Of a stretch of 34,267 nt of DNA, positions 15,415 to 34,267 are shown one piece after another (within the stretch, counting starts at the first letter, position 1; the number at the start of each line of letters is the position of its first letter). Source of the stretch: Anaerofustis stercorihominis (GTDB lineage: Bacteria > Bacillota > Clostridia > Eubacteriales > Anaerofustaceae); contig SVCP01000014.1 of the NCBI GenBank assembly GCA_015058295.1, positions 1 through 34,267 on the forward strand, given 5' to 3'. The notes beneath the pieces were generated by a model. That model saw only the letters and a program-made list of their open reading frames with translations. It searched no databases and was not told the DNA's origin. Position numbers and translations under genes: made by a program.

Positions 15415-15550
15415 CGCGTCGAAACAGCTCTGATTTACTCCGAAATCCCCTGAAGGGCATTTCTCCGCTTATATAGCTGTTTCTCCTTTGTCGCGGAAAT
15501 GGGATTTCCGCGAGTATGGGAAAGTAACCGTCTTTATGCCGTGTATTCTT
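15415..15550 (-). repeat. Structured element B, copy 1 (core 15415-15527) with 5' flank
   Basis: On the minus strand: TTACTTTCCCA, a 9-bp hairpin (15492-15500 / 15504-15512), AAGGAGAAACA, a 9-bp stem (15421-15429 / 15475-15483) enclosing a GAAAT...ATTTC hairpin (15442-15463), ending GTTTCGACGCG. Bases 15425-15550 recur at 15725-15849 with only about three differences. Confidence 0.85.
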
Positions 15551-15716: not shown

Positions 15717-15849
15717 GTGTGAGCCAGCTCTGATTTACTCCGAAATCCCTGAAGGGCATTTCTCCGCTTATATAGCTGTTTCTCCTTTGTCGCGGAAATA
15801 GGATTTCCGCGAGTATGGGAAAGTAACCGGCTTTATGCCGTGTATTCTT
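15717..15849 (-). repeat. Structured element B, copy 2, right end decayed
   Basis: Bases 15725-15849 repeat 15425-15550. The segment corresponding to CGCGTCGAAA of copy 1 reads differently, so the last stem is partly lost. The 9-bp hairpin and its loop are intact apart from one loop base (AGG for GGG). Confidence 0.8.
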
Positions 15850-15939: not shown

Positions 15940-16521
15940 AATAAAAAACTGCGATGCAACCAACACAGTATATTATAACTCTTCTTTACAATTCACATTT
16001 ATGCGCAGGATAAATCGCTCATAGACGGGTGCGGCTTTTGATATCCTAACCCACAACAAAAATTTAAAAACTCCACACAATCTGCAATTACTTTCCCACT
16101 CTCGCCAAAATCCTATTTTGGCGAAACAAGGAGAAACATCTTTATGAAATGAGAAAGTGCCTTCAGGTACTTTCGAGACAAATCAAAGATGTTTCGACGC
16201 GGCGCGTGGTTTACCTATGTGTAAATGAGCGACAGCCGCGCAGCAACCATTAATACAATTCACATTTATGCGCAGGATAAATGGACGAAGACAAGGCGGC
16301 TTTTGGAGCGACGAAGGGCGCGTACTTAAGCGTACGTGAGCACTGACGATGAAAAAACAACAAACATATCACGCATTATGACAAATCTCATTTATGCGCA
16401 GGATAAATCGCTCATAGACGGGTGCGGCTTTTGAGCCGATGACGCGTGGTTTACTTGCAGTAAATGAGCGGCAGCGGCGAAAAAACAATCCCGTATATGA
16501 CGATTTAGACAAGCATAAAAG
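15940..16521 (+). repeat. Composite structured array 1: three element-A units with nested element B
   Basis: A 582-nt locus paralogous to 25169-25748. It has a 58-nt shared leader (15940-15997), then unit A1 (15998-16264) containing element B (16088-16201), unit A2 (16265-16390) and the complete terminal unit A3 (16391-16521). Each unit begins TTTATGCGCAGGATAAAT. Only A3 ends with the conserved ATTTAGACAAGCATAAAAG. In A3, 16405-16422 pairs with 16490-16506 (17 pairs, one bulge, one mismatch). An internal hairpin GTTTAC/GTAAAT or GCGTAC/GTACGT is found in every unit. No open reading frame is credible here. Confidence 0.9.
16088..16201 (+). repeat. Structured element B, copy 3, nested in A1
   Basis: Same frame as copies 1 and 2 but with different stems: CGCCAAAAT / ATTTTGGCG (16103-16111 / 16115-16123), GAAACATCTTT / AAAGATGTTTC (16133-16143 / 16185-16195) and GAAAGTGCC / GGTACTTTC (16153-16161 / 16166-16174). 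It interrupts the unit between CTTTTGA and the CGTGG hairpin, where intact units have a short GCCGATGA segment. Confidence 0.88.
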
Positions 16522-20398: not shown

Positions 20399-20457
20399 TA
20401 TTAAATTTTAACCGGCACATCACGTACAGCTCAATATTTGTTTATACGACTAAACAG

Positions 20458-20581
20458 TATGCGCAGTATAAATGGACGAAGACAAGGCGGCTTTCGAAGT
20501 CGATGACGGGCGCGTACTTAAAGCGTACGTAACCGGCAACGACAAGAAAACAACGCAGTATTCGTTCATTTAGACAAGCAT
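20458..20581 (+). repeat. Solitary complete element-A copy (A4)
   Basis: A 124-nt element from TATGCGCAGTATAAAT to ATTTAGACAAGCAT. The closing stem AAATGGACGAA (20470-20480) pairs with TTCGTTCATTT (20561-20571), 11 pairs with one G-T. The internal hairpin CGTAC/GTACG is present. It ends 3 nt before the stop codon of the convergent AIM24 gene. Confidence 0.88.
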
Positions 20582-20584
20582 CGA

Positions 20585-21355
20585 TTACACCAACCCCTTG
20601 TTCACCGGCGCAAGCAAAACCTTCCCCGTTCCGCGATATACATTCACAAGGCCTTCACCGCTTGCGGCAGAGCCGACGAGAGATTTACCTGAGCGTTCAA
20701 CGGTAAAGTCAAGGCTTCCGCTCCATGCGATTGCCATATTTCCGTCAACTTTAAGAGTATCGTTTTCCAGGATAATTTCCACAAGCTCTTCTTTCGGGCA
20801 GGCAGATTCAAGACAAAGAATACCTTTTCCCTGAATACCGAGATTGAAAAGGCCTTCTCCCCCGAGTGCCGCTGATGAAATATTTGAGCGCATTACCGCC
20901 TTATGTTTAAGGCTTGATTCACATGCAAGGAACAATCCGTCATCAAGAACGATTGAGCCGTTCCAGTCAGCCACATCAATAAGAAGGATATGTTTGTATG
21001 TGGGTTCAAGTACGAGAACTCCCTCTCCCGCATATTCCGGCTTGATAGCGCTTTCTCCCGTAACACTGCCTCTGAGTGCTTTGCCGAAAAAGTCTCCGAC
21101 TCCTTTTACGCCTGTGTTTGCGTTTACGTTACCTACAGTCCACTGCATTGCACCTGCCTGAAGAGTGATTCCTTCTTTTGATACTTCACATACGACCTGT
21201 TTTTTTCTTACGTTCATTTCGTTGCAGTAATACGCAAGCATAGCCATATCCGGAGTAACACTCAGATCTCTCTGATATTCGATTACTTTAAACGGGCCAA
21301 GCTGATTTATGATCTTTACATCATCGTTGTCTGTAAAATTTCTGATATTATACAT
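20585..21355 (-). CDS. AIM24 / TIGR00266-family protein
   Basis: 256 residues of the TIGR00266/AIM24 family, beta-rich trimeric-type proteins of unknown bacterial function. Motifs: MAMLAYYCNEMNVRKKQ, GEGVLVLEPTYKHILLIDV, the Ser/Gly-rich NISSAALGGEGLFNL, GKGILCLESACP and the late SASGEGLVNVYRGTGKVLLAP. No signal peptide or membrane segment. The ribosome binding site is AAAGGA. The only sequence between its stop and the next gene is repeat A4 and the hairpin at 20328, with no separate terminator seen. Confidence 0.88.
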   Translation of the reverse strand: MYNIRNFTDNDDVKIINQLGPFKVIEYQRDLSVTPDMAMLAYYCNEMNVRKKQVVCEVSKEGITLQAGAMQWTVGNVNANTGVKGVGDFFGKALRGSVTGESAIKPEYAGEGVLVLEPTYKHILLIDVADWNGSIVLDDGLFLACESSLKHKAVMRSNISSAALGGEGLFNLGIQGKGILCLESACPKEELVEIILENDTLKVDGNMAIAWSGSLDFTVERSGKSLVGSAASGEGLVNVYRGTGKVLLAPVNKGLV

Positions 21356-25168: not shown

Positions 25169-25748
25169 AATAAAAAACTGCGATGTAACCAACACAGTAT
25201 ATTATAACTCTTCTTTACAATTCACATTTATGCGCCGTATAAATTTTCGCAGACCAGGCGGCTTTTGATATCGTGACCCACAACAAAAATTTAAAAACTC
25301 CACACAATCTGCAGTTACTTTCCCACTCTCGCCAAAATCCTATTTTGGCGAAACAAGGAGAAACATCTTTATGCAATGAGAAAGTGCCTTCAGGTACTTT
25401 CGAGGCAAATCAAAGATGTTTCGACGCGCGTGGCGTACCCAAGCGTACGTGAGCACTGACGATGAAAAAACAACGAAACATATCACGCATTATGACAAAT
25501 CTCATTTATGCGCAGGATAAATCGCTCATAGACGGGTGCGGCTTTTGAGCCGATGATGCGTGGTTTACCTATGTGTAAATGAGCGGCAGCGGCGCAGCAA
25601 CCATTAATACAATTCACATTTATGCGCAGGATAAATTTTCGCAGACTAGGCGGCTTGCGAATCGGCGGCAGGCGCGTACTATACAGTACGTAACTGACGA
25701 CGATGAAGCAAACAACAACGTCTGCGGAAATTTAGACAAGCATAAAAG
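25169..25748 (+). repeat. Composite structured array 2: three element-A units with nested element B
   Basis: A 580-nt paralogue of 15940-16521. Shared leader 25169-25226, unit A5 (25227-25504) containing element B (25315-25428), unit A6 (25505-25618) and complete terminal unit A7 (25619-25748). In A7, AAATTTTCGCAGAC (25633-25646) pairs with GTCTGCGGAAATTT (25720-25733) over 14 continuous pairs with one G-T. Unit order by stem type differs from array 1. No credible reading frame. Confidence 0.9.
25315..25428 (+). repeat. Structured element B, copy 4, nested in A5
   Basis: 114 nt, same length and same stems as copy 3 at 16088-16201, with a handful of substitutions outside the stems. Confidence 0.88.
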
Positions 25749-34195: not shown

Positions 34196-34267
34196 GATTC
34201 ATTAGCTCAGTCGGTAGAGCACCTGACTTTTAATCAGGGTGTCCGGGGTTCAAGTCCCCGATGGATC
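34196..34267 (+). tRNA. tRNA-Lys (TTT), discriminator end beyond the window
   Basis: Acceptor GATTCAT / ATGGATC (one G-T), D-arm AGCTCAGTCGGTAGAGCA, anticodon stem CCTGA / TCAGG with loop CTTTTAA (anticodon TTT), variable loop, T-arm CCGGGGTTCAAGTCCCCG. All 72 bases to the end of the acceptor stem are present; the discriminator base and any encoded CCA lie outside. Confidence 0.97.

Follow-up and report, generated by a model that had tools for sequence, protein, structure and literature searches.

A dispersed palindromic repeat at gene 3′ ends in Anaerofustis stercorihominis is probably a clostridial member of the ERIC/IRU/RU-1 superfamily

The window, a 34,267-nucleotide stretch of DNA from Anaerofustis stercorihominis, contains arrayed and solitary copies of a structured repeat, here called family A. 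Family A is probably a clostridial lineage within the ERIC/IRU/RU-1 superfamily, that is, a non-autonomous imperfect palindrome of about 127 bp that has spread through the genome and whose amplification would require a folded + strand. ERIC is a 127-base palindromic repeat of gut enterobacteria. To our knowledge, it has so far been regarded as belonging to enterobacteria and related proteobacteria, and we know of no mobilizer for it. What is new is an ERIC-type repeat in a clostridial genome, the complete turnover of its stems with two loops kept, its nearly always antisense placement at gene 3′ ends, and a larger sister family (family B) with duplicated terminator hairpins on its flanks. No description of a clostridial ERIC was found in the open-access literature, which is weak evidence of absence, and a literature search by sequence words gave no match.

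RESULTS

Family A units in the window. The window holds three intact family A units, and arrays 1 and 2 contain diverged or interrupted units besides intact ones (Table 1). Units were scored with R1, a covariance model built from 21 clostridial copies with no ERIC sequence included. The first-pass annotation had described three complete copies with fixed ends, and these were confirmed with limits refined to those in Table 1. Moreover, its observations that the closing stems are unrelated to one another while each is self-complementary, and that the inner hairpin exchanges GCGTAC/GTACGT for GTTTAC/GTAAAT, both hold in the intact copies. The left-end motif TATGCGC(A/C)G(G/T)ATAAAT occurs seven times in the window at zero or one mismatch (six exact, one with a single mismatch), against an average of 1.5 matches in shuffled sequence even at a looser limit of three mismatches. 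The right-end motif TTTAGACAAGCAT has three exact copies in the window, one per intact unit, and its count when searched alone at up to two mismatches was not above chance. By inspection, unit ends read (T/A)ATGC..GCAT(A/T), mostly TA..TA with some AA..TT or other pairs, and right ends of clostridial family A copies read GACGAGCATT or GACAAGCATA. The TATAAAT of the left end was considered as a promoter element and rejected, as matches to a −35 element were inconsistent by eye.

Table 1. Positions of family A units and of their conserved parts in the window
Feature	Position	Strand	Evidence
Interrupted unit, array 1, insert at ~16031-16201	16000..16266	+	Left end at 16000; 171-nt repeat in common with 25258-25428
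Diverged unit, array 1	16267..16392	+	R1 full-length match, 55.9 bits
Intact unit, last in array 1, 127 nt	16392..16518	+	R1, 115.9 bits; end-helix limits; fold
Intact solitary unit, 127 nt	20457..20583	+	R1, 126 bits
CAAGGCGG, 5′ side of conserved inner loop, copy 20457	20483..20490	+	Sequence; motif also in RU-1
Apical hairpin GGGCGCGTAC..GTACGTAACC, copy 20457	20508..20534	+	Sequence; fold
CAACGCAG, 3′ side of conserved inner loop, copy 20457	20551..20558	+	Sequence; motif also in RU-1
Interrupted unit, array 2, insert at ~25258-25428 (repeat as in array 1)	25229..25506	+	Left end, one mismatch; shared insert
Diverged unit, array 2	25507..25620	+	R1, 37.2 bits
Intact unit, last in array 2, 126 nt	25620..25745	+	R1, 130.2 bits

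The 171-nt small repeat that interrupts one unit in each array lies in the inner stem of several family A units and of one unit of the larger sister repeat, family B. Its place of insertion is constant while the closing stems of the host units differ, which suggests exchange of interiors. Inverted relatives of this small repeat lie at positions 15415-15528 and 15738-15827 of the window. The window ends within a tRNA gene (34196-34267, + strand).

Fold and covariation. The family A unit folds into a single long, imperfectly paired hairpin that is closed by a terminal helix of 6 bp and carries two internal loops, both conserved. From the ends inward, the order is terminal helix, internal loop GCAGKA/GACAA, closing stem, loop CAAGGCGG/CAACGCAG, inner stem, and apical hairpin. 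Covariation extends over the closing stem, the inner stem, and the apical hairpin, with 92% of alignment cells paired compared to 73% in shuffles, and pairing dropped from 92% to 30-39% once partners were slid against each other; the cells count related sequences, such that independent events are overstated. The first-pass annotation had proposed a selected structure with strong covariation, a claim to be abandoned if copies elsewhere in the genome failed to covary or if Rfam returned a known family. The proposal was borne out by 140 two-sided changes compared to 43±5 in shuffles, copies genome-wide do covary, and Rfam gave no relevant match to the repeat at either gathering or relaxed thresholds. 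In the terminal helix, covariation reaches across six pairs and stops there, which sets the length of the unit at about 127 nt. Conserved bases to the left of the unit at first resembled a longer element, but that reading was rejected, and they are best explained as the right ends of older units that have since decayed. Folding energies of five copies were below those of dinucleotide shuffles (z of −5.0 to −8.4). Moreover, in 28 of 33 copies the + strand was the more stable one when both strands were folded as RNA, with a mean difference of 5.4 kcal/mol, the copies being related to one another. We note that in the first internal loop the left spacer (GCAG or GAAG) and the right spacer (GACAA or GACGA) vary in concert, as though they made a non-standard contact.

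Placement at gene 3′ ends. R1 gave 47 matches in the genome (1.83 Mb in 91 contigs), of which 26 scored above 100 bits; as the assembly breaks at repeats, these are minimum copy numbers. The unit and its 3′-side neighbor gene are convergent at almost every locus. The right end of the unit falls at a gene 3′ boundary in 29 of 30 cases, nearly always antisense to the gene: 18 lie within −12 to +4 nt of the stop codon in the 3′-side gene, 9 coincide with the end of a terminator T-tract, 1 with the 3′ end of a tRNA-Ser gene (by eye), and 1 with the 3′ end of RNase P RNA, the remaining one lying elsewhere. Within the window, the right end of the solitary unit and the stop codon of a convergent gene of the AIM24 family (20585-21355; assigned by Pfam) are 3 nt apart, and the last unit of array 2 ends where the terminator T-tract of the ribosomal protein L31 gene (Pfam L31) ends. 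In all eight tandem loci of the genome, the unit beside the gene has the higher R1 score. A second genome of the same genus (G010) has a plain terminator where the home genome has a unit downstream of the genes for an M18 peptidase, the L066 gene product, RNase R, and PurH, and the prfB end holds a unit with different stems in both species. The purH end (L060, L272-L277) and the prfB end (L061, L133) are apparent hot spots, with units of different stems in different species or families.

One way to account for such placement is that each hairpin is a cis-acting element of the 3′ untranslated region kept for the adjacent gene (3′-end protection, a block to read-through, or translational control), in which case the covariation would record selection locus by locus and not a need for folding during spread. 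The gene-boundary placement in nearly constant orientation, the better conservation of the gene-proximal unit in tandem loci, and the common position of the prfB unit are consistent with this explanation. The better-folding strand is, however, antisense to the mRNA in question, orthologues in G010 do without the element, the unit has no T-tract of its own, and interrupted and decayed copies are common. We consider maintenance by the adjacent gene unlikely and favor an ERIC-type repeat that spreads in a folded form.

Relationship to ERIC. BLAST searches with the apical motif returned unannotated stretches of proteobacterial records, and these matches, together with the sequences of ERIC primers, suggested an ERIC identity, which was then tested. 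When applied to E. coli ERIC sequences, R1 matched three of four loci, two of which are the same cus locus, and gave a whole-model match of exactly 127 nt (860-986). Scores were modest (20.6 and 23 bits), with E-values of 9.4e-5 and 4.3e-4 in 7.4 kb, which are rough, as E-values of home-made covariance models are. R2, a model restricted to the core, matched all four E. coli loci. The RU-1 consensus printed in PMC2759123, when reverse-complemented, reads TATACCC..CAAGGCGG..GGAGCTTAC-ATAA-GTAAGTGAC..CAACGCAG..GGGTATA; it is 127 nt long and has the fold and strand asymmetry of family A. The interior RU-1 motifs CAAGGCGG, GGAGCTTAC..GTAAGTGAC, and CAACGCAG recur in family A without a change of order, the apex showing C/G variation. 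Moreover, the E. coli ubiV ERIC ends on the right in GACGAGCATA, similar to the clostridial right ends given above. The first-pass annotation had left the repeat unrecognized; its statement that this is not a known riboswitch, tRNA-like element, group II intron domain, or attC site stands, but the repeat probably does have known relatives, namely ERIC/IRU/RU-1.

Family A thus resembles ERIC in length (127, 127, and 126 nt for the intact copies), in forming a long imperfect hairpin with CAAGGCGG and CAACGCAG at the inner loop, in a GGAGCNTAC..GTANGTGAC apex and a GACNAGCATA right end, in being multicopy and intergenic, and in which strand folds better. ERIC has a terminal inverted repeat with a 5′ TA (PMC2229807), and the covarying end helix of family A is likewise mostly TA..TA. 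The E. coli cusC and ubiV units are also antisense and lie 5 to 6 nt from a stop codon, whereas the pgk-fbaA copy is in the sense orientation, and the antisense gene-end placement of family A is far stricter. The two differ further in every stem sequence and in the clostridial host. A search for target-site duplications in family A detected none of at least 5 bp, a 2-bp TA duplication being indistinguishable from the end helix. Because the stems have no sequence in common, homology rests on the loops, apex, ends, length, and fold.

Relatives of family A were found in other Clostridia. R1 matched 2 of 13 genomes of the bacterial family, the home genome and G010, and gave full-length matches in six genomes of another family of the same order, where the unit adjoins the purH stop codon at five of the six loci read. 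With R2, at E-values up to 0.001, weaker relatives were indicated in 24 of the 391 genomes from the class, and units of like fold were present on three IMG/VR contigs; the weakest of these matches may include false ones. At 14 of 16 such loci, the 3′-side gene is convergent, and the stop codon lies mostly 13 to 33 nt from the core, i.e., near the right end of the unit. A sequence-pattern search requiring GCGGMTT returned two records, taken as chance matches without folding; since that sequence was demanded, the pattern was blind to the relatives later found with covariance models.

The absence of stem sequence in common with ERIC and the modest model scores could also indicate convergence, in which an unrelated clostridial repeat acquired an ERIC-like fold and short loop motifs through the same conserved cellular reader. 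Two identical 8-nt loop motifs in order, an apical hairpin, a length of 127 nt, and a near-identical right end are nevertheless much to arise separately, and intermediate forms occur across the class. Convergence therefore seems improbable to us, and we conclude that family A probably belongs to the ERIC/IRU/RU-1 superfamily.

Spread and the search for a mobilizer. A probable mobility of family A is supported by three features of the sequences: near-identical copies are scattered, arrays are nested, and orthologous sites have plain terminators instead of a unit. Between recent copy pairs, differences amount to 82 of 416 positions at the ends and 89 of 1580 in the interior, a roughly 4-fold excess per site at the ends for which the computed p-value is too small, as the pairs overlap; because of this excess, interiors seem to have been exchanged between resident ends. 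Minimal copies, whose two ends meet across a very short interior or none at all, occur at L069:2103-2134 and G000:C77:26721-26753.

Covariation and strand asymmetry point to the folded + strand as the form that would be recognized. We propose that a copy can amplify only when its + strand is able to fold, either as single-stranded DNA or as RNA, since a host or trans-acting factor would read the loops; such reading would preserve the fold and leave the stems free to drift or to be swapped as cassettes. Multi-helix covariation and better folding of the + strand might equally be expected of stand-alone genes for a family of trans-acting small RNAs, but by inspection the left end lacks a consistent promoter, at many loci the + strand is transcribed by neither neighbor, and many copies are decayed, which together make small RNA genes quite doubtful. 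The attC R boxes are GTTRRRY and RYYYAAC. Although variable stems enclosed by conserved end boxes and spacers, the presence of tandem arrays, and interiors exchanged relative to ends recall an attC-type folded site moved by a tyrosine recombinase, that origin is very unlikely, as inspection of the ends showed (T/A)ATGC..GCAT(A/T) and not the R-box consensus, the conserved motifs lie deep within the hairpin, and no cassette genes separate the units. The reading we retain is a non-autonomous ERIC-type repeat.

No mobilizing enzyme for family A was identified among the Y1/RAYT-like, IS200, and reverse transcriptase candidates of the genome. The IS200 element was rejected because its ends differ, and a RAYT-like Y1 protein was rejected because its HUH motif is lost, with YCILPDRANF in its place. 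A conserved REP-transposase-like protein without the HUH histidines is encoded at L168:1093-1995 (− strand) and at the end of L173, and adjoins mcsA in G010. The sole reverse transcriptase of the genome is of the UG26 defense type (L216:1105-2442, − strand); G010 gave no RVT_1 match, and the enzyme is therefore not a shared mobilizer.

Family B and other repeat systems. Family B is larger than family A, has a core in common with it, and starts with a terminator-like hairpin of its own (e.g., L182:2090-2390). In most copies with both flanks readable, the host terminator hairpin is present on both sides as copies of 16 to 32 bp, and two family B sites correspond to a single terminator in G010. 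No autonomous partner carrying family B ends was seen. YPAL is reported to make duplications of 3 to 26 bp at or beside dyad symmetry (PMC2229807). By description, family B is similar to YPAL/RU-2 of Yersinia (~168 bp) in size and in duplicating a palindromic terminator, but differs in the core that it has in common with family A and ERIC. REP sequences are 20 to 40 bp long with a GTAG tag (PMC3733652) and often lie near stop codons (PMC12306157); family A also consists of dispersed palindromes close to stop codons, but its ends have no GTAG tag and the only RAYT-like proteins found are those without HUH histidines. The BOX, RUP, and SPRITE repeats of Streptococcus pneumoniae form nested clusters of small repeats, some of them terminator-like (PMC10969869), and family A is similar by description in its nested small-repeat clusters in a Gram-positive genome.

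DISCUSSION

A bolder reading, which we offer as speculation, is that an ancient element, of which ERIC itself would be one branch, is present in widely separated bacteria, with its identity held in two internal loops and all of its stems replaceable. The 5′ tip of such an element would pair with its target, a stop codon or a T-tract, hence the preference for gene 3′ ends, and the terminal helix would record the pairing of guide and target. For the host, a hairpin within the 3′ untranslated region of a convergent gene may alter mRNA stability or translation, by analogy with the effects of ERIC on neighboring mRNAs summarized in PMC2229807.

Clostridial relatives with different stems separate the conserved features of ERIC (loops, ends, fold, and placement) from those that are replaceable, and in doing so narrow the candidates for what a recognition factor reads. 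Moreover, the present genome is rich in intact copies and has nested arrays, and the orthologous sites of a sister species are empty; together they provide a test bed for how such repeats move and how they come to stop at gene ends.
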